Origin: Candidatus Propionivibrio aalborgensis
Lineage (GTDB): Bacteria; Pseudomonadota; Gammaproteobacteria; Burkholderiales; Rhodocyclaceae
NCBI RefSeq assembly: GCF_900089945.1
Contig: NZ_FLQY01000012.1
Coordinates: 1 to 55,583 of the forward strand
Direction: 5' to 3'
Length of the DNA stretch: 55,583 nt
This document shows, one piece after another, positions 4,568 to 34,494 of this stretch (within the stretch, counting starts at the first letter, position 1; each line of letters starts with the position of its first letter). Under the pieces are notes generated by a model. That model saw only the letters and a list, made by a program, of their open reading frames with translations. It did not search any database and had not been told where the DNA came from. The position numbers were made by a program, and so were the translations under genes.

Positions 4568-5554
4568 ATGTCCAAATCCCCAGTTCGTGTCGCCGTTACC
4601 GGCGCTGCCGGCCAAATCGGTTACAGCCTGCTTTTCCGGATCGCCTCCGGTGAAATGCTCGGAAAAGACCAACCGGTCTTTCTCCAACTGCTCGACCTGC
4701 CGCAAGCCCAGAAAGCCTGCCAGGGTGTCATGATGGAACTCGACGACTGCGCGTTCCCGCTTCTCGAAGGAATGATCGCCACCGACGACCCCAACGTTGC
4801 ATTCAAGGACGCCGACATCTGCCTGCTGGTCGGCGCCCGCCCGCGCGGCCCCGGCATGGAACGTGCCGATCTCTTGACGGCCAACGGCGCCATCTTCACC
4901 GTTCAGGGCAAAGCCATTGCCGAGAACGCCAAGGAGGATGTGAAAGTCCTGGTCGTCGGCAACCCCTGCAACACCAACGCACTGATCGCCGCCTCCGCTG
5001 CCAAGAAGGTTGGCCGTACCAACCCGGCCAACTACCACGCCATGCTACGTCTCGATTACAACCGTGCCGTCCTGCAGCTCGCCCAAAAGAGCAAGCGTCC
5101 GGTTGCCAGCTTCAAGAATCTGGTGGTGTGGGGAAATCACTCGCCGACGATGTACGCCGATTATCGCAACTGCACGTCCAATGGCGACAACGTCAAGACG
5201 TTGATCAACGACCCGGTCTGGAACAACGATGTCTTCCTGCCGACCGTCGGCAAACGCGGCGCTGCCATTATTGAGGCACGCGGCCTTTCTTCAGCCGCTT
5301 CCGCAGCCAACGCCGCGATCGACCATATCCATGACTGGGTGCTTGGTTCAGCCAACTGGGTCACCATGGGCGTACCGAGCGACGGCTCCTACGGCATCCC
5401 CGCCGGTATCGTGTTCGGCTTCCCCTGCGAATGCAAAGGCGGCTCGTTCAAGATCGTTCAAGGGGTCGAAATCGACGACTATTCGCGCGAGAAGATCAAC
5501 AAGACCCTCAAGGAACTCACCGACGAAGCTGAAGCAGTCAAGGCCATGCTCTAA
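4568..5554 (+). CDS. mdh: Malate dehydrogenase (NAD-dependent)
   Basis: Interconverts malate and oxaloacetate in the TCA cycle. The protein is 328 aa from ATG 4568, preceded by an ACAGGAG Shine-Dalgarno; the frame is open further upstream but lacks a ribosome site there. The N-terminal NAD fold has [10 protein letters not shown] (about residues 11-20). [11 protein letters not shown] supplies the substrate arginines of the mobile loop, VVGNPCNTN is the conserved strand, and VWGNHSPTM carries the catalytic histidine. It belongs to the cytosolic-MDH-like branch common in Betaproteobacteria. It is divergent from gntR-sdh and ends at a strong hairpin terminator. Confidence 0.97.
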
Positions 5555-5570
5555 GCGGGTACCTGCTCAA

Positions 5571-5602
5571 CAAAAAGCCGCAGCGAGTCTGCGGCTTTTT
5601 TT
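5571..5602 (+). terminator. Rho-independent terminator after mdh (works both ways)
   Basis: Stem GCCGCA (5577-5582) pairs with TGCGGC (5590-5595) and is followed by seven T. A run of A at 5572-5576 precedes it, so it could also stop minus-strand transcription from the convergent DUF2914-like gene. Confidence 0.88.
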
Positions 5603-5660
5603 GTCCACCGCAACCGTGCGCCAGGAATCGGCGGTGCTGCGGCAATGCGGAATCGCTGCC

Positions 5661-6062
5661 TTACAAAGGGGGGCTGAATGCGAAGTTCCGCTGATCGATC
5701 ACCTGGCCCTGGCCATTCAGCACCATGACCGTCCAATCACCCGTCCATTCCTCCTGCATTTTCATTTTCGACCAAACGGGTTGCTGCGCACGTGTCACCT
5801 TGATTGATTCTTCCTGCTTGCTCTTGCCCTCAAGACTCCAGCGCAGCTTTACGGTCTGCCCGGTGAGACCGACCAGTTCGCCGTAGTAGAAAACGGCCGG
5901 TGTCGAATTCATGAACTGTTGGCGGAAATCGACGGGCTTGCCGTCTGCAACGTCCGAGGTGAATGTGGCGTTGATAACCGCCCCCCCATCCTGGGCAAAG
6001 GCTGCCGGTCCGGACAAAGCGGCGGCAACGGCAAGCACAATCACAAAACTGGGAATCTTCAC
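5661..6062 (-). CDS. Secreted DUF2914-like protein
   Basis: A 133-aa protein with a clear signal peptide when started at GTG 6062 (KIPSFVIVLAVAAALSG, then PAAFA before the cleavage site); GGAGAGA lies upstream of this GTG. A longer frame from 6164 would bury the signal peptide, so I reject it. The mature part is beta-rich: INATFTSDVADGKPVD, then VKLRWSLEGK, then a WSKMKM and WTGDWTVMVLNGQGQVI stretch. This pattern of a W after a basic turn followed by G-x-W-x-V resembles DUF2914, a domain of unknown role in periplasmic proteins. Convergent with mdh, with no operon partners. Family placement is from memory of the pattern. Confidence 0.72.
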   Translation of the reverse strand: MKIPSFVIVLAVAAALSGPAAFAQDGGAVINATFTSDVADGKPVDFRQQFMNSTPAVFYYGELVGLTGQTVKLRWSLEGKSKQEESIKVTRAQQPVWSKMKMQEEWTGDWTVMVLNGQGQVIDQRNFAFSPPL

Positions 6063-6351
6063 GGGGTCTCTCCATCTGGGATAGCCGGCTTGACCGGCGG
6101 AACCCTCCACACGCCAATAAAAATGGGCAACAATATGGACAGGCATTTCAAACACACGAGCCAAATTATCCGTAGCCTCTGCCTAGCAGTCAATGATAAT
6201 CAGGCTTCGCACGCCAATACTGATTATGACTTCGAAATATTTTGGCGGTGGCGCCATTCAACACGGCGTGACTAGAGACAAACAGAGTCGTTTGACATGC
6301 GTTACAAATATCAGTTGCGAAGAATGAACACCCTTTGCTGAGAGAGCCGCC

Positions 6352-7128
6352 ATGCCAAGATTCGCCGCCAACCTGACAATGATGTTCACCGAACTCCCGT
6401 TCCCGGAGCGCTTTGCCGCTGCCGCCAGGGCCGGCTTTCCGGCGGTTGAATTTCTTTTTCCCTACGATTACCCGGTCGCGGATGTGACCCGCTGGCTCAA
6501 GGACGCCGGACTCAAGAGCGCGCTGTTCAATATGCCGCCCGGCGACTGGGCGGCGGGAGAGCGTGGCATCGCCTCGATTCCGGGACGCGAAGCGGAATTC
6601 CACGCCGGCGTGGACCTGGCGCTCGAATATGCGCTGGCCATGGGGACTCCCGGCCTCCATGCCATGGCCGGCTTGCTTCCGGCAGGTGCCGACCGGGCGC
6701 AGCATCGGGCGGTGTTGGTCGACAATCTGCGCTGTGCGGCCAAAGCGCTTGCCAGCCAGGGCCTGACGCTGCTCATCGAACCGATCAACACGCGCGACAT
6801 GCCCGGCTACTTCCTCGACACGCAGGCCGAGGCGCATGCCCTGCGCAACGAGATAGGCGCCGCTAACCTTAAGGTGCAAATGGATTTCTATCATGCTCAG
6901 ATTGTCGAGGGCGACCTCAGCGTTACGCTGAAGAACAATATCACTGGCATCGGTCATATCCAGATCGCTAGCGTTCCCGAGCGGCACGAGCCTGACGAAG
7001 GAGAAGTCAATTACCGCCATCTGTTCCGGTTGCTGGACGACCTGGGTTACCAGGGCTGGGTCGGTTGCGAGTATCGCCCGCGCGGCAAGACCGAGGACGG
7101 GCTGGGCTGGTTAAAGAGCATGACTTGA
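6352..7128 (+). CDS. otnI: Hydroxypyruvate isomerase family protein, probably 2-oxo-tetronate isomerase (OtnI/Hyi)
   Basis: TIM-barrel sugar-acid isomerase of 258 aa. The N-terminus ([17 protein letters not shown]) and the end ([21 protein letters not shown]) match OtnI/YgbM closely. The middle ([30 protein letters not shown]) matches Hyi. Metal-ligand positions are visible as EPIN, QMDFYH, HIQIA and CEYRP. An isomerase acting on 2-oxo-tetronate (or hydroxypyruvate) fits the next gene, 12 bp downstream, an erythronate dehydrogenase. Substrate choice between OtnI and Hyi is not settled by sequence alone; the neighbour favours OtnI. Confidence 0.85.
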
Positions 7129-7140
7129 GAGGACGATGAC

Positions 7141-8118
7141 ATGAAAGTACTGATTACCGGTGGCGCCGGGTTCCTGGGTCGGCGACTGGCCAGGAAGCTG
7201 CTGCAACGCGGCGTGCTCAGGAATTCTACGGGCGAGGAAGAAGCAATCGACCGGCTGGTGTTGTTCGATGTCGTCAAGGCCGACGGATTCACCGATCCAC
7301 GGGTTTTGGCTGTCACCGGCGATCTTGCCGATCCGCTGGCGATCAGCGACCTTGTCGACACCGATACCGCGTCAATCTTCCATCTGGCCGCGGTAGTCAG
7401 CAGCCAGGCGGAAGCGGATTTCGATCTGGGGATGCGCGTCAACATTGAGGCCTTGCGCCTTCTCTTCGAGCGCTGCCGCCAACTGGAACATCGCCCGAAA
7501 GTGCTGTTTGCCAGTTCGGTCGCCGTCTATGGCGGTGAGCTTCCCGAGATTGTTCGGGACGACACCGCGCTCAGCCCGAAGTCCTCGTACGGCGTCCAGA
7601 AGGCCATCGGCGAGCTGCTACTGTCCGACTACAGTCGCCGGGGCTTCATCGACGGACGCGGCGTGCGTCTGCCGACGATATCCGTACGGCCGGGCAAACC
7701 CAACAAAGCCGCATCGTCATTTGCCAGCGGCATTATTCGGGAACCGCTGAACAACGAAGCGACAGTCTGCCCGGTGACGGCGGATACCCGTCTGTGGCTG
7801 CTTTCCCCACGCCAGGCCATCGAATGCCTAGTCTGGGCGCACGATCTGGAAAGCGAGGCCTTCGCGCAACACCCGGTGCTCAACCTGCCCGGCGTCAGCG
7901 TGACGGTTGGGGAGATGGTCGATACCCTGGGCCGGGTTGCCGGCAAGCCGGCGATCGACAAGATTCGTTGGGAAAGCGATCCCGTCGTACAACGCATCGT
8001 CGGCGGCTGGCCCGGCTGCTGGGACATGACGCGTGCCCACGCGCTGGGCTTCACAGGTGATCAAGACTTTGAAGGGATCGTGCGGGCGTATATGGCGGAC
8101 GATCTGGCTCCGGGCTAA
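7141..8118 (+). CDS. denD: D-erythronate dehydrogenase-like NAD-dependent epimerase/dehydratase (DenD)
   Basis: Extended short-chain dehydrogenase of 325 aa. The Rossmann motif is GGAGFLGRRLA near residues 7-17. AAVVSSQAEADFDLG follows, then the catalytic Ser-Tyr-Lys set is visible as FASSVAVYGG and SYGVQKAIGE. RLPTISVRPGKPNKAASSFASGIIREPL is the substrate loop typical of DenD. DenD oxidises D-erythronate to 2-oxo-tetronate, which OtnI then isomerises, so the pair forms the first two steps of a C4 sugar-acid route. The expected kinase OtnK and decarboxylase OtnC are not in the window. Confidence 0.85.
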   Translation: MKVLITGGAGFLGRRLARKLLQRGVLRNSTGEEEAIDRLVLFDVVKADGFTDPRVLAVTGDLADPLAISDLVDTDTASIFHLAAVVSSQAEADFDLGMRVNIEALRLLFERCRQLEHRPKVLFASSVAVYGGELPEIVRDDTALSPKSSYGVQKAIGELLLSDYSRRGFIDGRGVRLPTISVRPGKPNKAASSFASGIIREPLNNEATVCPVTADTRLWLLSPRQAIECLVWAHDLESEAFAQHPVLNLPGVSVTVGEMVDTLGRVAGKPAIDKIRWESDPVVQRIVGGWPGCWDMTRAHALGFTGDQDFEGIVRAYMADDLAPG

Positions 8119-8315
8119 AGATTTGCTAGGTAGGTATCGGGCTGCGAGGCTGTTGGTAGTCGTACTACGCTGACACATCGCTTCAAGCTGGCACTTGCAT
8201 CGAGTGCTACACGAAATTGTTTATGGGTGCGTGGCGTAGTATCGCTATTCATCGAATTACTAAACAGCCAAGCTGCGATTGATCAAGGCATTTTGCGCCG
8301 ACGGACTTAACCAAG

Positions 8316-9386
8316 ATGACACTGATAGCATCACTTGCAGCGGACGGACATCCGACGCTCTTTGGAGACCTGCTGTTGACGGGTCCAACCGCCAATACTG
8401 CCCCAAACGTCTCCATTCCCGCCTTAGGGAACGTAAGCAACTTCTTCGGCAACTCCGGTTGGGTAGTTAGCAGATTGGCTCAAAAGATCTGCCTTGTGTC
8501 GGATAGGCTGGTCGTGGCGTGGTCAGGTAGTTGGCTTGGTGCATCCCTTGTGCTGGCAGAGCTACGAAGACGTGATGCGCTGGGCCTTCTGAGTTATAGC
8601 GACATCTTTGAATACCTTAACGGTGAGGAAGAATTGGCGCTGCATCCCGCATCGTTCATCGGCTTAATTTCGGAGAAGGACGGAATACGGCGATTTCATT
8701 TTCATGCTGAGGAACTCGACAGCCAATCACATGGCAAACTCTTCTATGCAGGGACCGGAGCCTGCATATTCAAGGACCTCACAGAGTCTGTGATTTCTTC
8801 CGATGCATGCGCTGTCGGCCCCGACAATCCAATTCTGACCGCCCTAAGTGCCAATCTATTCTTTGGTGCAGCGCTTCTTCAAACTGAATATCTTCAAGGT
8901 GATGCTGCAACGACAATCAGAAACATGTTTGGTGGCGGGTACGAAATAGCACATTATGACTACCGCTTGCGTCGGTTTGAGAAGATAGCGCCCATCACCT
9001 ACATACTTTGGACAGTGGACTGCACCGACGGGAGCGTCCATGTTGGATTGCCTCGATTGATAGTTGCACAGCATTATAGCGGCGAATTTCTTCTGATTCG
9101 CTCATTACGCTTTGATCCATCGACGGTCTCACAAGCTCCGTTGAATGTCGACGAACGACGCTTCGTGATTGCCCCAATGATCGCATCCGAGCAAATGCCG
9201 ACAGTTGCTCGGATCGCCGACATACACATTGAATCCAGCACATACTGCCACTGCATCGCGGTCCATGTCGCAGGCAAAAGCATAGGAATCGGAACGATAA
9301 TCTCCCAGAACGTCAGCCCGGCGGATCAGAGCTTCCGTCTTGAATTCCACGACGGAAAAGTCAAATTCTCTACGCGCGAAGTCTAG
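8316..9386 (+). CDS. HslV/proteasome-like Ntn hydrolase with C-terminal extension, function unknown
   Basis: A 356-aa orphan. Its start reads MTLIASLAADGHPTLFGD. If the initiator Met is removed, Thr becomes residue 1 and Asp falls at 17, the spacing of HslV (T-x-I-x-S...G-H...GD). Lys57 in AQKICLVSDRLVVAWSG sits where HslV has Lys33 before its KVIAGFAG strand. Later, FYAGTGA (144-149) and the GGGYEIAHYD to FEKI region (206-223) line up with HslV IGSGG and its late helix and strands. A region of about 130 aa follows that HslV lacks. There is no signal peptide or AAA+ partner nearby. Base composition is AT-richer than its neighbours, suggesting transfer. No good Shine-Dalgarno is visible. The gene is surely coding; the fold call is my alignment by eye. 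Confidence 0.7.
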   Translation: MTLIASLAADGHPTLFGDLLLTGPTANTAPNVSIPALGNVSNFFGNSGWVVSRLAQKICLVSDRLVVAWSGSWLGASLVLAELRRRDALGLLSYSDIFEYLNGEEELALHPASFIGLISEKDGIRRFHFHAEELDSQSHGKLFYAGTGACIFKDLTESVISSDACAVGPDNPILTALSANLFFGAALLQTEYLQGDAATTIRNMFGGGYEIAHYDYRLRRFEKIAPITYILWTVDCTDGSVHVGLPRLIVAQHYSGEFLLIRSLRFDPSTVSQAPLNVDERRFVIAPMIASEQMPTVARIADIHIESSTYCHCIAVHVAGKSIGIGTIISQNVSPADQSFRLEFHDGKVKFSTREV

Positions 9387-9751
9387 ACCACATATCAGTC
9401 TGCGCAAGAGCTATGCGTGATAATGCCTCGCGCACAATCAATCTTAAGCCGCCCGATTGATGCGCGCTCCGCTAATCTCATACGGCCAGAAACCTCGTCG
9501 GTCGTTAGCGCCGAGAATCGGAGGCGCGGAAATGAACTGGTACGCGCCGGCAAAGGTCGAAGGTGGTAGATTGGCAAGCAATGGGTGCTAGGCTGCTGAT
9601 TCGCCTAAGTGGGTATACCGTATCTGCCTGCGGGTTCTGGGGCAATTCGCGCCCCATAGCACTTCTCCGTTTGGGCTCTTTGGCGATCATACAGATAGCG
9701 CGCTACAGAACCGGACAAATCTAAGAACCCGCGACACTCCCAACACAGCAC
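9387..9751. other. About 365 bp with no supported gene
   Basis: Between the Ntn-hydrolase-like gene and the ars promoter I see only short frames on both strands, without ribosome sites or family-like sequence. No tRNA, hairpin terminator or inverted repeat of an insertion sequence stands out. It may be degraded DNA left at an insertion boundary. Confidence 0.5.
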
Positions 9752-9786
9752 TTGCCAAACCGCAAATATTTCCATAGTATTGGAAA
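9752..9786 (+). promoter_or_regulatory. ars operon promoter with ArsR operator
   Basis: TTGCCA (9752-9757) and TAGTAT (9775-9780) are 17 bp apart. An inverted repeat TTTCCA-N6-TGGAAA (9769-9786) encloses the -10 hexamer exactly as its spacer, so bound repressor would block polymerase. The predicted start of transcription, 9787-9788, coincides with the arsR ATG at 9788. Confidence 0.68.
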
Positions 9787-9787
9787 C

Positions 9788-10108
9788 ATGGAAACCAACG
9801 ATGCCGTCAGCTCACTTGCCGCCCTGGCCCAGGAAAGCCGTCTGGCCGTCTTCCGCTTGCTGGTGCGTAACGCCCCCGAAGGGCTGACGCCGGGAGTGAT
9901 CGGCGAGCAGCTTGGCTTGCCGGCGCCGACGTTGTCGTTTCATCTCAAGACGCTGGCCCAGGCCGGTCTGGTTACGACGGTGCAGGAAGGTCGTTTCCTG
10001 CGTTACCGCGTGGCAATGGCCAGCATCAACGCGCTGATCGAATTTTTGACCGAGGACTGCTGCGGCGGTCATCCCGAACTCTGTATCCCGAAAGGAAAGC
10101 AAACGTGA
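9788..10108 (+). CDS. arsR: ArsR-family arsenite-responsive repressor
   Basis: Winged-helix repressor of 106 aa with the helix-turn-helix LTPGVIGEQLGLPAPTLSFHLKTLAQAGLV at about residues 33-62. It lacks the ELCVCDL metal box of the classical E. coli type. Instead it carries Cys91, Cys92 and Cys99 in a C-terminal DCCGGHPELC, so As(III) would be sensed at the C-terminus, as in the Acidithiobacillus-type ArsR. I start at ATG 9788; a TTG at 9752 is upstream of the promoter. No usable Shine-Dalgarno precedes the ATG. The stop overlaps arsC by four bases. Confidence 0.92.
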   Translation: METNDAVSSLAALAQESRLAVFRLLVRNAPEGLTPGVIGEQLGLPAPTLSFHLKTLAQAGLVTTVQEGRFLRYRVAMASINALIEFLTEDCCGGHPELCIPKGKQT

Positions 10109-10620
10109 CAACTGGCAACCCCCTCAACGTGCTGGTGTTGTGTACCGGCAATTCCGCCCGTTCGATTATTGGCGAATCCCTGTTCAACCATCTCGGCAAG
10201 GGCCGCATTCGCGCCTTTTCGGCAGGCAGCAAGCCTTCCGGCAAGGTCAATCCGGTCGCGCTGGAAACGCTGGAAAAGCACGGCATCGCGCTGCCGTCCG
10301 AGGTGCGCAGCAAATCGTGGGACGAGTTTGCCGCGGTGGGTGCGCCGCAGCTCGATTACATCTTCACCGTGTGCGCCAGCGCCGCCGGCGAGACCTGCCC
10401 GATCTGGCCGGGGCATCCAGCTACTGCGCACTGGGGCATCGCGGACCCGGCGCATGTCGAGCCGCTCGAAGCGCGGCGGGAAGCCTTCGAACTGGCCTAC
10501 CGCCAGTTGGAGAAGCGCGTCCGGGCTTTCCTCGCCTTGCCGCTCGAAACGCTCTCGGCCGACGAGGTCAAGGCTGCCGCCCGGCGTATTCATGAGGAAG
10601 CCGGACAAGAAGCGCAGTGA
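10105..10620 (+). CDS. arsC: Arsenate reductase, low-molecular-weight phosphatase type
   Basis: Cytoplasmic enzyme reducing arsenate to arsenite with thiol cofactors. The 171-aa protein begins with the CX5R loop VLCTGNSARS (Cys13, Arg19) and has the general-acid region GIADPAHVE near residue 113, as in protein-tyrosine-phosphatase-like ArsC. Start is GTG 10105, overlapping the arsR stop (GTGA), with AAAGGAA upstream. The C-terminal 25 residues (LSADEVKAAARRIHEEAG) exceed the catalytic core. The reduced product would feed ArsD/ArsA/Acr3 encoded downstream. Confidence 0.93.
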   Translation: MTTGNPLNVLVLCTGNSARSIIGESLFNHLGKGRIRAFSAGSKPSGKVNPVALETLEKHGIALPSEVRSKSWDEFAAVGAPQLDYIFTVCASAAGETCPIWPGHPATAHWGIADPAHVEPLEARREAFELAYRQLEKRVRAFLALPLETLSADEVKAAARRIHEEAGQEAQ

Positions 10621-10666
10621 TTACTTTCTACGGCAAGGACGATGCCGATTTACCAAGGAGACTCAA

Positions 10667-11029
10667 ATGACCAACATCCAGATTTATGACCCGGCGCTGT
10701 GCTGCAGCACGGGTGTTTGCGGGGTGGACGTGGATCAGCAACTGGTGAGCTTTTCCGCCGATGTCGATTGGGCGAAGCAGAACGGCGCTCACGTCGAACG
10801 CTTCAATCTGGCGCAGCAGCCGATGGCTTTTGCCGAAAACACGGTCGTCAAAAGCTTTCTCGAACGTTCGGGCGCCGAAGCCTTGCCGCTCATCCTGGTC
10901 GACGGCGAAGTCGCTCTCGCCGGGCGTTATCCCAACCGGGGAGAGCTCACCCGCTGGGCCGGTATCAGTGCGCCTTCAAATCAGCAAGAGCCGGCGGCTG
11001 CATGTTGCAGCGGCAAGCGCTGCTGCTGA
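10667..11029 (+). CDS. arsD: ArsD arsenite metallochaperone
   Basis: Protein of 120 aa that delivers As(III) to the ArsA ATPase and weakly represses ars operons in known cases. The thioredoxin-like fold begins IQIYDPALCCSTGVCG, giving Cys12, Cys13 and Cys18, the three conserved metal ligands. The tail ends CCSGKRCC, the second and third vicinal pairs found in longer ArsD forms. The start at ATG 10667 is preceded by AAGGAG. It is 46 bp after arsC and 18 bp before arsA. Confidence 0.94.
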   Translation: MTNIQIYDPALCCSTGVCGVDVDQQLVSFSADVDWAKQNGAHVERFNLAQQPMAFAENTVVKSFLERSGAEALPLILVDGEVALAGRYPNRGELTRWAGISAPSNQQEPAAACCSGKRCC

Positions 11030-11047
11030 ACGGGAAAGCCGGATTCC

Positions 11048-12850
11048 ATGAAATTTCTCGATCATCCGCCGCGCTTTCTTTTCTTCACTGGCAAGGGCGG
11101 CGTCGGCAAGACGTCGATCGCCTGTGCCACCGCCATTCAACTGGCCGAAAGCGGCAAGCGGGTGCTACTGGTCAGCACCGATCCTGCCTCCAACGTCGGC
11201 CAGGTGTTCGGCGTGACGATTGGCAATCAGGTTGTGGGCATTGAGGCCGTTGCCGGTTTGTCCGCGCTGGAGATCGACCCGCAGGCGGCGGCGCAGGCTT
11301 ACCGCGATCGCATCGTCGGCCCGGTACGAGGCGTGCTGCCGGAGGCGATAGTCAAGGGCATCGAGGAGCAACTTTCCGGCGCCTGCACCACCGAGATTGC
11401 CGCGTTCGACGAATTCACCGCACTGCTGACCGACTCGACGCTCACCGTCGATTTCGATCACATCGTTTTCGACACCGCGCCGACCGGGCATACCATCCGC
11501 CTCCTGCAGTTGCCGGGGGCCTGGAGCGGTTTTCTTGAAGAGGGCAAGGGCGATGCCTCCTGTCTCGGCCCGCTCGCCGGGCTGGAAAAGCAGCGTTCGC
11601 AGTACAAGGCGGCGGTCGACGCGCTAGCCGATGGTCACCGCACCCGATTGATTCTCGTCGCCCGCGCCCAGATTGCCACCTTGCGCGAGGTCGCGCGAAC
11701 GCACGAAGAGCTCGCCGCCATTGGCCTTTCGCAGCAGTATCTGGTGGTCAACGGCGTTCTGCCCGCGAGCGAAACGGCCGCCGATCCTCTGGCTGCGGCC
11801 ATTCACGAGCGGGAGCAAGCCGCATTGGCCCGGATCCCCGCCGTACTCAAGCGGCTGCCCTGCGATCGCCTGGCTCTGAAGTCTTTCAATCTGGTGGGCC
11901 TGACCGCGCTTCGCCAGTTGCTCGGGTCGGCGGACGATGCCATGACCGAGATTGACCCAGCCCATACCGCGCAGACGTCGCCTGCTCCGCTGGCTGCTCC
12001 GGACCTTGCGACTCTGGTCGACGAGATTGCCGTGGACGGGCATGGCCTTGTCATGCTGATGGGCAAGGGCGGTGTCGGCAAGACAACGCTGGCTGCCGCA
12101 CTGGCTGTCGAGCTGGCAAGCCGTGGCTATCCGGTGCATCTGAGCACCTCCGATCCGGCTGCACATCTCTCGGACACACTCGATGCCGCGCTCGAAAACC
12201 TGACGGTCAGCCAGATCGACCCGCATGCTGAAACGGAGCGCTACCGCCAGCAGGTGCTCGAATCCCAGGGGGCATCCCTCGATGCGCAGGGTCGTGCCCT
12301 GCTGGAAGAAGACCTGCGCTCACCCTGCACCGAGGAAATCGCCGTCTTCCAGGCGTTTTCGCGCGTCATTCGCGAAGCCGGCAAGAAGTTCGTCGTGATG
12401 GATACCGCGCCAACCGGGCATACCCTGTTGCTGCTTGACGCAACGGGCGCCTACCACCGCGAAATCGCGCGCCAGTCGCGCAACGCCGATGAGCATTTCA
12501 CCACGCCGATGATGCAGTTGCAGGATCCAAAGCAGACCAAGGTTCTGCTGGTGACGCTGGCCGAAACCACGCCCGTTCTGGAGGCAGCGAACCTGCAGGC
12601 GGATCTGCGTCGTGCCGGCATCGAGCCCTGGGCCTGGGTGGTCAATAACAGCATCGCGGCCACCACTGTCGTTTCGCCTTTGCTACGCCAGCGTGCGCGA
12701 AATGAACTGCGCGAGATCGATGCCGTGGCATCCCGGCATGCCAAGCGTTACGCGGTGGTTCCTTTGCTGGCCGAGGAGCCGATCGGAACGGCGCGTCTGA
12801 GAAAACTGGCGAACAGGGAAGCAGAGCCTGTTGCCGCAGACGGGATGTGA
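11048..12850 (+). CDS. arsA: ArsA arsenite-transporting ATPase
   Basis: Soluble ATPase of 600 aa that energises arsenite export through the membrane carrier. Two homologous halves are visible, each with a deviant Walker A (GKGGVGKTS near residue 15, GKGGVGKTT near 339) and a DTAPTGHT signature. The allosteric As(III) cysteines are present: CTTEIAAF in the first half, CLGPL after it, and CTEEIAVF in the second half. It lies between arsD and acr3. ArsA with an Acr3-type carrier rather than ArsB is a known arrangement. Confidence 0.96.
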
Positions 12851-12851
12851 T

Positions 12852-13940
12852 ATGCGCGCCGTCACAAGAAAACTCTCGTTCCTCGACAGGTATCTCACCG
12901 TCTGGATTTTCGCCGCCATGGCGCTCGGCGTCGGTCTCGGTTTTTCCGTTCCGGGGATCGAGGATTTCATCAACAGCTTCCAGGTCGGCACAACCAACAT
13001 GCCGATTGCCATCGGGCTGATCCTGATGATGTACCCGCCCTTCGCCAAGGTGCGTTACGAAGAACTGCCCGACGTATTCCGCGACACGAAGGTGCTGGGG
13101 CTGTCGCTGGTACAGAACTGGATCGTCGGGCCGGTCCTGATGTTCATTCTGGCGATCATATTCCTGCAGGACCAGCCGGAATACATGGTCGGCCTGATCA
13201 TGATCGGACTGGCACGTTGCATTGCCATGGTGATTGTGTGGAACGAACTGGCCAAGGGCTCCACCGAGTATGCCGCTGGCCTGGTGGCCTTCAACTCGAT
13301 CTTTCAGGTGCTGTTCTTCAGCGTCTATGCCTGGCTGTTCATCACTGTGCTGCCACCGCTCTTTGGCCTCACTGGAGCAGTTATCGACATCTCGATCGGG
13401 CAGATTGCGGAGAGCGTCTTCATCTATCTGGGCATCCCGTGCCTTGCCGGAGTGCTGACGCGCGTGATCATGCTGCGTTTTGTGACCAAGGACTGGTATC
13501 ACTCCCGTTTCGTTCCGAAGATCGGGCCGATCACCCTGACCGCGCTGCTGTTCACCATCGTCGTCATGTTCAGCCTGAAGGGCAAGCTGATCGTCAGCAT
13601 TCCGCTGGACGTGGTGCGTATCGCCATCCCGTTGCTGATCTATTTCGTCGTGATGTTCATCTTTTCGTTCTTCGTGAGCAAGCGCCTGGGAGCCAATTAC
13701 GAAAAGTGCGCGACCCTCTCATTCACCGCGGCCAGCAACAACTTCGAACTGGCGATCGCCGTTGCCGTCGCGGTTTATGGCATCGACTCGGGCGTCGCGT
13801 TTGCCGCGGTGATCGGCCCACTGGTTGAAGTGCCGGTGATGATCGGCCTGGTCAATGTGGCGCTCCTGTTTCAAAGGAAGTACTTCGCCACGGCTTTGGC
13901 AGGAACCCCGGTATCGGATCACGGAAAACAGAGAGCCTGA
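12852..13940 (+). CDS. acr3: Acr3-type arsenite efflux permease
   Basis: Inner-membrane As(III) exporter of 362 aa with about ten hydrophobic segments. The family signatures are visible: [19 protein letters not shown], containing the essential cysteine, [20 protein letters not shown], and [13 protein letters not shown] with the conserved glutamate. The start is ATG 12852, one base after the arsA stop; the frame extends upstream into arsA without a better start. It is last in the operon and is followed by a hairpin terminator. Confidence 0.95.
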
Positions 13941-13966
13941 CTTGAATTCTGTGACCATGAAGCCCG

Positions 13967-13997
13967 AAAAAAAGCCTCCGACAACGGAGGCTTTTTT
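13967..13997. terminator. Bidirectional terminator between acr3 and icd
   Basis: Stem GCCTCCG (13974-13980), loop ACAA, and CGGAGGC (13985-13991), with an A run on the left and a T run on the right. It can end transcription of both convergent genes. Confidence 0.9.
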
Positions 13998-14020
13998 GCT
14001 AACGCCAGAAGCGCTACAAA

Positions 14021-15250: not shown

Positions 15251-15511
15251 GTTTACTCCAATAATGTGATTTGTTTATGCCCTGGTCGCGTGCCCGAAAA
15301 TCAGCCAACTCGCGTTGTTGGCATTTGCTGCAGACTTGAAAGTTAATCGATGCAGCGTGATCAATCGTAAACGCTGTCTTCAGTTGGCACAGGGCGCAAT
15401 TATGGCGGAAAAACCGGCGTTTCGCCAGCATTCCGTTAATCTCGATTGTCATACTTACTTGTGGTGCAGTTAGTGCTACAATTTCTGGCTCCCAAATCAC
15501 GGTCAACAAAG

Positions 15512-17281
15512 ATGGTAGATTTTTTCGACGAACACCCCCCCTCCCTTCTAATTGCGAAAGCAATGATCGAGGGCTTCAACCGCCACTATCGATTGTTTCG
15601 CGAGTACGGTCAGCGGGCGAAAGAGCTTTTTGAAGAAGGTGACTGGAAAGGCGTGCAGGATGCCGTCCGTGAGCGCATCCACTCTTACGACAACCGATCG
15701 ACAGAAACCGCCAAACTCATCGAAGCCCGGTACGGCACCGATTCGCTCGACGACGCAATCTTGCAACAACTAAAGCTGCATTACATTGGCCAGTTGATCA
15801 ATCACAAGCAGCCTGAACTCGCGGAAACATTCTTCAACTCGGTTAGCTCACGACTCCTGCACCGGACCTATTTTCACAACGACTACATCTTTGCCCGCCC
15901 GGCGCTATCCACCGAATACATTCTCTCTGACCCGCCCGTCTATGCAAGTTACTACCCAAGTCAACATGGACTGCGACAGACGATCAAGCAGATCATTCTC
16001 GATTTCGATTGGCAACGCCCCTTTGAAGACCTCGACCGGGATGTCGATTGTGCATTGCGCGCAGCGGCACAGTTTCTGGGGGGCTGGCCCAAAGCTGAAG
16101 CCAACGTTCAGATACAGGTGCTGCACTCCGCTTTTTACCGTAACAAGGGCGCCTATATTTTCGGCAAAGCCATCAACGGCCACATTGAGACTCCTTTTGC
16201 CGTACCCGTCCTGCACAACGCGGAAGGCAAACTGGTACTCGACACCCTGTTACTCGACCCAGCGAAGATCGTTACTCTTTTCTCGCTGTCCCGCGCCTAC
16301 TTCATGGTCGATATGGAGGTGCCTTCAGGTTACGCTCAATTCCTGATCAGCATGCTGCCAAACAAGCCTCGATCGGAAATCTACACCATGCTTGGCCTCG
16401 GCAAGCAAGGTAAAACGATGTTCTTCCGCGACCTGCATGAGCATCTGCGTCACTCGCGGGACCAATTCATCATCGCACCGGGTGTCCCCGGAATGGTCAT
16501 GCTGGTCTTCACGCTGCCCTCTTATCCTTATGTATTCAAGATGCTCCGAGACGTATTCGCGGCGACGAAGGAAGTTGATCACGACACGGTCAAGGCCAAG
16601 TACCTGATGGTCAAGAAAGTCGACCGTGTAGGCCGAATGGCAGACACGCTGGAATTTTCGGACGTCGCCTTTCCGAAAGACCGTTTTTCGGGCGAATTGC
16701 TCGAAAACTTGCGCACACACGTTCCTTCGCTGCTTGAAGAAGATGGCGATGATCTGGTTATCAAGCACCTCTATATCGAGCGTCGCATGACGCCACTGAA
16801 CGTCTATCTCGACTCCGCAACGCCCGAACAGATCGACCACGCCGTCTTTGAATATGGCAATGCCATTCGCGAACTGGCCAGCGCCAACATATTTCCTGGC
16901 GACATGTTGTGGAAGAATTTCGGCATGACCAGCTACAAACGGGTGGTGTTCTACGATTACGATGAAATCGAATACATGACCGACTGCAACTTCCGCGTGA
17001 TCCCCGAAGCTCCGTACCCGGAAATGGAAATGTCCAGTGAGCCTTGGTATTCAGTGGGAAAGAACGATGTTTTCCCCGAGGAATTTGCCTCCTTCCTGCT
17101 CGGGTCGCCCAAAGTGCGCACAGCTTTTCTCAAATACCACCGCTATCTTCTGAATGCAAAGTTCTGGAAAGCAGCACAGGATAAAATCCGTTCGGGTTAC
17201 CTTGAAGATTTCTTTCCCTATCCTGAAGAATTGCGTTTCTGCAATGCGTTCAAGGATGCGTTCCCGGAAGAAGCGCCCTAA
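15512..17281 (+). CDS. aceK: Isocitrate dehydrogenase kinase/phosphatase AceK
   Basis: Bifunctional enzyme that switches Icd off by phosphorylating it when carbon must pass through isocitrate lyase. From ATG 15512 it is 589 aa, near the family length. The C-terminal kinase-like domain has the AceK ATP loop APGVPGMVMLVFTLPSYPYVFK, with the lysine in VFKMLRD, and catalytic-loop residues in GDMLWKNFG and FYDYDEIEYM. The frame is open from 15446, but that extension is hydrophobic and has no family match. Here it is next to icd rather than in an aceBAK operon; aceA lies about 11 kb away. Confidence 0.95.
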   Translation: MVDFFDEHPPSLLIAKAMIEGFNRHYRLFREYGQRAKELFEEGDWKGVQDAVRERIHSYDNRSTETAKLIEARYGTDSLDDAILQQLKLHYIGQLINHKQPELAETFFNSVSSRLLHRTYFHNDYIFARPALSTEYILSDPPVYASYYPSQHGLRQTIKQIILDFDWQRPFEDLDRDVDCALRAAAQFLGGWPKAEANVQIQVLHSAFYRNKGAYIFGKAINGHIETPFAVPVLHNAEGKLVLDTLLLDPAKIVTLFSLSRAYFMVDMEVPSGYAQFLISMLPNKPRSEIYTMLGLGKQGKTMFFRDLHEHLRHSRDQFIIAPGVPGMVMLVFTLPSYPYVFKMLRDVFAATKEVDHDTVKAKYLMVKKVDRVGRMADTLEFSDVAFPKDRFSGELLENLRTHVPSLLEEDGDDLVIKHLYIERRMTPLNVYLDSATPEQIDHAVFEYGNAIRELASANIFPGDMLWKNFGMTSYKRVVFYDYDEIEYMTDCNFRVIPEAPYPEMEMSSEPWYSVGKNDVFPEEFASFLLGSPKVRTAFLKYHRYLLNAKFWKAAQDKIRSGYLEDFFPYPEELRFCNAFKDAFPEEAP

Positions 17282-25180: not shown

Positions 25181-27439
25181 ATGATTGCGCAAGAGCTTGA
25201 AGTCAGCCTGCACATGGCTTTTGTCGAGGCACGACAAAAGCGCCATGAGTTCATCACGGTCGAGCACCTTCTGCTTGCGCTGCTTGACAACACCTCAGCC
25301 GCCGAGACCTTGCGCGCCTGTGGCGGAAACATAGAACAGCTTCGCAAGGATTTGACCAAGTTCATCGTTGAGCACACGCCGACGGTCGACGGTGAAGACG
25401 ATATCGATACGCAACCCACGCTCGGTTTTCAGCGCGTTATCCAACGCGCCATCCTGCATGTCCAGTCTTCCGGTAAGAAAGAGGTCAATGGCGCCAATGT
25501 CCTGGTCGCGATTTTTGGCGAAAAGGATTCACACGCGGCGTATTACCTGCAGAAACAGGGAATCGCCCGCCTTGATGTAGTCAATTACATTTCCCACGGC
25601 ATCAGCAAGGTACCGCAAGGCACGGTGCGCAGCGAAAATGATGTTGAAACCGAAGGTGAAGCCCAGGTCGCCGCCGGGCCGCTGGAGAGCTACACCATCA
25701 ATCTCAACGCACTTGCCCAGCAAGGCAAGATCGATCCTCTGATCGGGCGTGAAAAGGAACTTGAGCGGGTCATCCAGACACTCTGCCGTCGACGCAAGAA
25801 CAACCCCTTGCTGGCAGGCGAAGCGGGGGTGGGCAAAACTGCCATTGCCGAGGGCCTTGCCCGTCGAATCGTTGAAAATAACGTGCCGGAGGTTCTCGAG
25901 AAGGCAAACGTCTACGCACTAGACATGGGCGCGCTGCTGGCGGGCACGAAGTATCGCGGCGACTTCGAGCAGCGCTTAAAAGGCGTTCTGAAGCAACTGA
26001 GCGAAAAACCCCAGGCCATTCTGTTCATCGACGAAATCCATACCCTGATTGGTGCCGGATCGGCTTCCGGCGGCACACTCGATGCGTCGAACCTGCTCAA
26101 ACCGGCGCTTTCCAACGGCCAGCTCAAGTGCATCGGTGCGACAACCTACACCGAGTACCGCGGCATCTTCGAGAAAGACCACGCGTTGTCGCGTCGCTTC
26201 CAAAAAATCGACGTCAATGAACCTTCTATCGCCGAGACCATTGAAATTCTCAAGGGTCTAAAAACCCGCTTCGAGACGCACCACGGCATCAAGTACTCGG
26301 CTGCAGCGTTGACCTCGGCCGTTGAACTCTCGGTACGCTTCATCTCCGACCGCCACCTCCCGGACAAGGCCATCGATGTCATCGATGAAGCCGGTGCCGC
26401 ACAACGCATTCTTCCCAAGTCCCGTCAGAAGAAGATGATTGGCAAGCAGGACATCGAAGAGATCGTGGCCAAGATCGCACGCATTCCCTCGACGCACGTC
26501 TCGACCGATGACCGCAGTTCGCTGAAGAACCTTGACCGCGATCTCAAAGCGGTAGTCTTTGGACAGGAGGCAGCCATCGATGCTCTGACCAGGGCGATCA
26601 AGATGGCACGTTCGGGACTGGGCAATCCAACCAAGCCGATTGGCTGCTTCCTGTTTTCCGGCCCCACTGGCGTCGGCAAAACCGAAGTGGCCAAACAGCT
26701 CGCCTACTGCCTCGGCAATGAATTATTGCGTTATGACATGTCGGAGTACATGGAACGCCATGCGGTTTCAAGGTTGATCGGCGCGCCACCGGGCTATGTC
26801 GGTTTCGAGCAGGGCGGGCAATTGACTGAGGCAGTCACCAAGAAGCCTTATTGCGTACTGTTGCTTGACGAGATCGAAAAAGCCCACCCGGATATTTACA
26901 ACATCCTGTTGCAGGTGATGGACCATGGCACCCTGACGGACAACAACGGCCGCAAGACTGATTTTCGCAACGCGGTCATCATCATGACCACCAATGCCGG
27001 TCAGGAATCCATTCAAAAAACCAGTATGGGCTTTACCAATGTCAAGACGGCAGGCGACGAGATGGTCGAAATAAAACGACTGTTCACGCCCGAGTTCCGC
27101 AACCGGCTCGACGCCACCATTTCCTTCAAGGCACTTGACCACGACATTATTCTGCGCGTGGTCGACAAGTTCCTTATCCAGCTTGAGGAACAGTTGCATG
27201 AGAAGAAGGTGGAAGCCACCTTCACCGATCGGCTGAAGGAACACCTTGCCGCCCATGGATTCGATCCACTGATGGGCGCACGCCCCATGGCGCGCCTGAT
27301 TCAGGACACCATCCGCTCGGCGCTGGCTGACGAATTGCTGTTCGGACGCTTGACCAGCGGCGGTCAGGTAACGGTCGATCTGGACGAAGAGGACAAGGTA
27401 AGACTGGTTTTTGAAGAAGAAGCCGAAGCGGTCGTTTGA
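25181..27439 (+). CDS. clpA: ClpA, ATPase subunit of the ClpAP protease
   Basis: AAA+ unfoldase of 752 aa that feeds proteins to ClpP. The N-domain spans about residues 1-145. AAA module one has [15 protein letters not shown] and the Walker [13 protein letters not shown]. Module two has [15 protein letters not shown] and [12 protein letters not shown]. The absence of a long middle coiled coil separates it from ClpB. GGAGG lies upstream of the ATG. clpP is not in the window. Confidence 0.97.

Positions 27440-31871: not shown

Positions 31872-34486
<2,615 letters not shown>

Positions 34487-34494
<8 letters not shown>

Follow-up and report, generated by a model that had tools for sequence, protein, structure and literature searches.

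The gene analysed here, which lies in a stretch of 55,583 nucleotides of the Candidatus Propionivibrio aalborgensis genome (hereafter the window), probably encodes a stand-alone proteasome-type Ntn enzyme that is carried as mobile accessory cargo and works without an AAA+ unfoldase. As judged from the alignment of its homologues, the catalytic residues Thr2, Asp18, Lys57 and Gly71 are retained throughout a highly divergent family composed of 12 proteins from 11 loci, which are 15-45% identical between loci. Orphan proteasome homologues have already been published as a group (Fuchs, Alva and Lupas, 2021; PMC8665760); what is new is the setting of this family, which is mobile and in part linked to defence, together with the discovery of a variant that has no insertion.

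Results

Catalytic layout and homologue family

The gene is uninterrupted, running from an ATG at 8316 to a TAG at 9386, and encodes a protein of 356 aa (Table 1). A previous sequence-only reading of this DNA had located Thr2, Asp18, Lys57, a GTG turn (residues 146-148) and a long C-terminal region in the translation, and all of these are at the positions claimed. The insertion of 23 residues which it had placed between Asp and Lys is also right, because Asp18 and Lys57 span 39 residues in the window protein and the same span is 16 in HslV and the proteasome (D17, K33).

Searches of genomes, plasmids and contigs identified 11 proteins from 10 loci in addition to that of the window. In the 12-sequence alignment the only invariant residues are M1, T2, D18, P35, K57, G71, G146, G148, G206, G207 and Y254. 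The conservation of Thr2, Asp18 and Lys57 proposed by the earlier reading thus extends to 12/12 proteins, and these three residues, named before any homologue was known, are all among the 10 invariant positions besides Met1. By hand arithmetic the chance odds of three named positions landing in 10 of 355 are about 2e-5, a figure that is only rough because Thr2 is at the protein start and a Met-Thr start was chosen in four of the 12 proteins. In these four (both copies of L010, and the members of L022 and L023) the start was moved to an internal GTG or ATG giving Met-Thr; a ribosome-binding-like GGTGGAGG precedes the chosen start in L010, and in the other eight proteins the first ORF start already yields Met-Thr. 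The L010 copies share 91% identity and have a dN/dS of 0.26, a value consistent with purifying selection in this pair. They form a direct repeat in the IMG/VR contig (2850-3932 and 4850-5932) with starts exactly 2,000 bases apart.

The N-terminal Thr or Ser, Asp17, Lys33 and Gly47 by which proteasome-like Ntn hydrolases are recognised all have counterparts in the sequences of the family. The Tenderia member is without the insertion (T2, D18, K33, G47) and, minus Met1, is within one residue of the proteasome Thr1-Asp17-Lys33-Gly47. The invariant Gly206-Gly207 perhaps corresponds, as we presume, to the S-G-G that follows helix 4 in beta subunits; counterparts of the beta-subunit positions Asp166 and Ser169 are not evident in the family.

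Table 1. Features of the window and loci of the homologous proteins.
Feature	Position	Strand	Basis or source
Proteasome-like gene (356 aa)	8316..9386	+	ORF reading plus 11 other homologous proteins
Thr2 codon, predicted N-terminal nucleophile once Met gone	8319..8321	+	invariant 12/12
Asp18 codon (= proteasome Asp17)	8367..8369	+	invariant 12/12
Asp-Lys insertion, residues ~24-52	8385..8471	+	spacing 37-43 in 11/12, 15 in Tenderia member
Lys57 codon (= proteasome Lys33)	8484..8486	+	invariant 12/12; residue 33 in insertion-less Tenderia member
Gly71 codon (= proteasome Gly47, oxyanion hole)	8526..8528	+	invariant 12/12; within profile columns 55-96
G-T-G turn, residues 146-148	8751..8759	+	both Gly invariant 12/12
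Gly206-Gly207	8931..8936	+	invariant 12/12
Extra C-terminal region, residues ~240-356, mostly beta	9033..9383	+	strands in two weak models
Variable segment flanked by the epimerase-like and arsR-like genes	8109..9690		replaced in sister genome G007; GC dip
Homologue locus L019			Azospira oryzae
Homologue locus L003			G080
Homologue locus L020			Agitococcus MAG
Homologue locus L014			G519
Homologue locus L006			Oscillatoria nigro-viridis plasmid
Homologue locus L010			IMG/VR contig, two copies
Homologue locus L022			G803
Homologue locus L004 = L007			Candidatus Tenderia electrophaga plasmid
Homologue locus L023			G584
Homologue locus L024			G795

No Pfam, NCBIfam or PADLOC model matches the window protein itself. 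Across the family Pfam gave nothing usable for the 11 of 12 members scanned (single matches below the cut-off, e.g., DUF3999 and GDH_2nd), NCBIfam and PHROGs gave nothing usable for all 12 (best E 0.035 for NCBIfam and 0.082 for PHROGs, each from a single member) and PADLOC gave nothing for the six scanned. No new relative came from genome contigs with the window protein as lone query, viral contigs held no new relative (one search recovered L010 only), plasmid searches with three other members found just Oscillatoria and Tenderia again, and tblastn with two of the 12 members as queries detected no member in 50,697 phage records. Two matches were dropped as spurious: L005 (85 residues with one internal stop, inside an ispE-like frame) and L025 (67 residues with an internal stop).

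Fold

When searched against 177,635 PDB sequences the family profile matched 13 proteasome alpha-7 sequences at E 5e-4 to 6e-4 (best 5.4e-4), the only PDB match at E<=0.001, with coverage of just 42 columns (55-96). Alpha-8 followed at E 1.2e-3, and below it came weaker rows with further proteasome subunits, a single HslV (E 0.42) and unrelated chains, among them a starch synthase (0.03). For the window protein alone the best E in the PDB was 0.068, and none of its five matches was a proteasome. Proteasome alpha subunits are without an N-terminal Thr. That the best profile match is an alpha subunit speaks for a catalytically dead or binding-only member of the proteasome-like proteins, which we hold to be highly improbable given that Thr2, Asp18, Lys57 and Gly71 are invariant in 12/12 proteins and given that alpha subunits are described in the sections of the 2021 survey drawn on here as inactive and bearing N-terminal helical extensions (PMC8665760).

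The AlphaFold2 model of the window protein, built on 5 sequences, is weak (mean pLDDT 54.4, pTM 0.62), and pLDDT is below 50 for residues 1-53, the nucleophile included. The 50 rows listed by Foldseek all refer to chains from proteasome entries (best E 7.7e-4), with only three at E<=0.001 and TM-scores of about 0.3 on the query; among those listed by VIA the 50 entries are likewise all proteasome (best Z 9.8, rmsd 3.9, 178 aligned), and in several VIA rows residue 2 of the model and residue 1 of the proteasome chain are the first aligned pair. A fold other than Ntn did not occur in these comparisons, and the predicted alpha-beta-beta-alpha Ntn fold holds on a low-confidence model (pLDDT 54).

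Comparison by hhalign with known families included BPH-like and Anbu-like proteins, which we take to be such from their start motif. The family aligned with a BPH-like set of 5 sequences at E 0.0012 (probability 19%), with HslV plus BPH at E 0.0008 and with a mixed set at E 0.0008 (25%). HslV alone (E 0.27) and Anbu alone (9 sequences, E 0.19) gave results no better than the control, an unrelated epimerase family (E 0.2).

In the model the Asp-Lys insertion, at a pLDDT of about 30, contains no helix, and two helices (73-88 and 94-103) come after Gly71. Modelled alone, the C-terminal region is predicted to form nine strands (pLDDT 65.6) with no reliable fold match (best Foldseek E 0.17; VIA Z 4.0). 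Against viral folds the one match, the nameless A0A7G8AMJ0, was borderline (E 1.3e-3). This anatomy bears on whether the protein is a connectase-like ligase or single-substrate transpeptidase, in which the insertion after strand 3 would cover the active site and give specificity. The two share a proteasome-like fold, the insertion apparently lies where connectase has its specificity element (a position that we deduce from the published description), and the beta-rich C-terminal region recalls the small C-terminal beta barrel that some connectases bear (PMC8665760, section 3.3). We nevertheless consider this reading quite unlikely: the archaeal connectase is described in the same source as having an insertion of two helices and as missing the first helix pair, whereas in the bacterial window protein the insertion has no predicted helix and that pair is predicted, if by a weak model; moreover, the Tenderia member is without the insertion and the C-terminal fold is unmatched.

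Locus and exchange site

Neighbour names given here and below are a reading of translations unless a domain match is stated. In the window the gene is separated by about 200 bases from an epimerase-like gene (7141-8118) on one side and by about 370 bases from an arsR-like gene (9752-10108) on the other. Within the reach of the Pfam families AAA_2 and AAA, the statement that no hslU or ClpX-like gene is adjacent stands: neither places an AAA+ gene beside the proteasome-like gene, and within the window they match just two ORFs, one clpA-like (25181-27439) and one rarA-like (33160-34494). An ArsA-like ATPase close by (11048-12850) is not AAA+.

The sister genome G007 aligns at 86-88% to the window flanks 6332-8108 and 9691-10615, and at the site between them (L062:5532-6280) it carries a 102-aa ORF, antitoxin-like by eye and with no Pfam match, and a PIN_3-domain gene (E 2.9e-16). 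Because different genes are thus held between aligned flanks, the epimerase-arsR segment looks, on this comparison of two genomes, like an exchange site. GC is 50-52% in bins within 8250-9499 vs 54-67% in the other bins of 5000-13999. Flanking repeats of an insertion were only short and imperfect, promoter and terminator counts were none above chance, Rfam gave no match, no similar plasmid DNA was found, and the one tRNA, a tRNA-Ser, is far off. It should be added that G007 is without the arsD/arsA-like stretch (window 10616-12851, including a 600-aa ArsA-like ORF) and has its arsC-like gene followed directly by an Acr3-like transporter gene. Elsewhere in the window a 611-aa ORF (15446-17281) with GC 0.52 and GC3 0.63, below its neighbours, resembles isocitrate dehydrogenase kinase/phosphatase (AceK) by reading.

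Distribution

In overlapping samples, the own genome being included each time, homologues were found in 3/99 and 4/198 relatives, in 4/399 genomes of the order, in 2/369 of the class and in 5/398 of the phylum, one of these five being dropped; with the window protein alone the class gave 3/369, of which one was dropped. No match occurred in the remaining 27 genomes of the genus, several of which are incomplete. The GC of the gene is lower than that of its flanks in 12/12 copies, and by at least 5 points in 10/12. With 45% identity the protein of Azospira is a little nearer to that of Agitococcus than to the window protein (41%), although Azospira belongs to the same taxonomic family as the window organism. 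From this distribution we infer that the gene, which is rare, is horizontally exchanged accessory cargo.

Rarity, atypical GC and an exchangeable site would be unusual for a housekeeping protease, and for this reason we think it rather unlikely that the family is a general self-compartmentalising protease, i.e., HslV/BPH-like rings degrading unfolded proteins, perhaps with housekeeping chaperones. Such a ring would fit with the proteasome matches of Foldseek and VIA, the weak profile similarity to BPH-like proteins, the chaperone-like neighbour in G803 (see below) and the ATP-independent turnover discussed for orphan proteasome homologues in the part of the survey drawn on here (PMC8665760).

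Neighbours at the homologue loci

Plasmid, defence, toxin or prophage settings were assigned to six of the 11 loci, the classes being set after looking and with no random-gene baseline; the window locus is counted among the six as a swapped site. In Oscillatoria the gene is on a conjugative plasmid between hsdS and hsdR. A row of multiubiquitin, E2/UBC, ThiF and DUF6527 genes (L006:669-3292) lies about 4.7 kb upstream of this homologue. In G795 a Septu-like pair, PtuA-like and PtuB-like (E 1.5e-53 and 1.6e-28), is about 4 kb upstream, a candidate PDC-S36 gene (E 2e-99) is next downstream and TniQ/TniB genes are further on. The Tenderia gene is on a mobilizable plasmid, where an annotated antirestriction protein lies about 2 kb off on the other side of the origin; Agitococcus has a YafO-toxin gene upstream and, about 5 kb downstream, a Zot gene of filamentous-phage type; and the IMG/VR contig with its two copies carries a Fic-like C-terminal domain and an Rhs-like ORF. 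The other five loci (Azospira, G080, G519, G803 and G584) are plain-looking, as judged from their ORFs only save for one gene of G803. This gene (L029:1486-2217) is the next one upstream from the homologue, and its product combines TerB and DnaJ domains, a possible chaperone link. With five of 11 loci plain, classes set after looking and no random-gene baseline, the defence leaning from neighbours is weak.

Discussion

The stand-alone enzyme favoured here is likely, by prediction, to be a mobile N-terminal-threonine peptidase or transpeptidase without an AAA+ partner. Methionine aminopeptidase cleaves Met1 before a small residue such as Thr2; its action would expose Thr2, and no propeptide would be needed because Met1 is removed in this way. 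The freed alpha-amine of Thr would serve as general base, aided by Asp and Lys, and the hydroxyl would attack an amide bond to form an acyl-enzyme. Past this N-terminal-threonine acyl-enzyme the mechanism is one that we infer: release would be by water (peptidase) or by another amine (transpeptidase or ligase, as in connectase), and, from the anatomy, the insertion between Asp and Lys together with the C-terminal region rich in beta strands may select the substrate or control assembly, which would make an AAA+ unfoldase dispensable. The substrate handled without an unfoldase would then be narrow or already unfolded. Horizontal exchange and the toxin-antitoxin or defence sites make it likelier that the role is conditional, whether in defence, in the control of toxins or in the biology of plasmids and prophages, than that it is housekeeping protein turnover. 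A more specific proposal, that of a mobile single-gene AAA+-independent family which cleaves or ligates one specific protein in anti-phage defence or toxin control, is speculative and in our estimate unlikely; if true, it would mean that the proteasome fold works outside bulk degradation, in bacterial immunity, and is carried like toxin-antitoxin cargo.

The earlier suggestion of a proteasome-like Ntn hydrolase is supported, and its distinctness from HslV is borne out by the lack of a PF00227 match and by the presence of the genome's own HslV on contig C349. This HslV (178 aa) is the sole PF00227 match in the genome and adjoins an HslU-like frame. The latter (C349, L009) appears as two open frames with AAA_2 at 10-231 and 410-541, either because the gene is broken or because of misassembly close to the end of the contig. 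HslV and the window protein are alike in the layout of Thr, Asp and Lys and in a glycine-rich turn, but HslV is half the length (about 175 aa), matches PF00227 and has an hslU partner; with 356 aa, no Pfam match and no adjacent AAA+ gene the window protein was ruled out as an HslV. BPH-like proteins share with the family the Met-Thr start, similar first strands and weak profile similarity; unlike the window protein they match PF00227, are about 190-210 aa long and have neither the insertion nor the long C-terminal region, so that BPH was ruled out on length, insertion, C-terminal region and PF00227. Anbu-like proteins also have a Met-Thr start and are proteasome-like, but they match PF00227 and the 11 of 12 family proteins scanned do not; this, with no significant Anbu profile match (E 0.19), led to the rejection of Anbu. 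In the same order PF00227 finds HslV and Anbu/BPH-like proteins and does not find the window family.

The proposal of a separate class stood in part: the distinction from HslV is as claimed, but the term is too strong because orphan proteasome homologues have been published as a group (PMC8665760). Fuchs, Alva and Lupas (2021) described 22 further prokaryotic proteasome-like families, and the window protein may belong to one of these. Among the open-licence papers listed none was recognised as assigning the families a function; "proteasome" and "Ntn" are absent from two defence papers (PMC13092281 and PMC12799240), and in PMC13022661 the sought terms occur solely in the reference list. Going by the sections of the survey drawn on here (PMC8665760), the orphan homologues (GPH, DAH, RPC, PMI-5/6) and the window family have in common a proteasome-like fold, Thr-Asp-Lys, a prokaryotic host and no identified AAA+ partner. 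Several also have an extra C-terminal domain, of no known structure in RPC, DAH and "DGH", or an S3/S4 insertion, as in connectase, PMI-5 and PMI-6. By published description only, GPH (159 sequences, marked for Proteobacteria and Euryarchaeota) or DAH (77 sequences, marked for Proteobacteria, Actinobacteria, Cyanobacteria, other bacteria and phages) may be the likeliest home of the window family. Of the two, DAH is the one marked for phages; two members of the window family used as queries found none in the phage records. For the 22 families the same sections report neither co-occurring AAA+ interactors nor genome contexts suggestive of function, in contrast to the defence, toxin and plasmid neighbours at six of our 11 loci. 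These intact loci give testable handles, including the conjugative plasmid with hsdS/hsdR and the region with the Septu-like pair, the defence candidate and the Tni genes, and the insertion-less Tenderia member offers a natural comparison for the role of the insertion.
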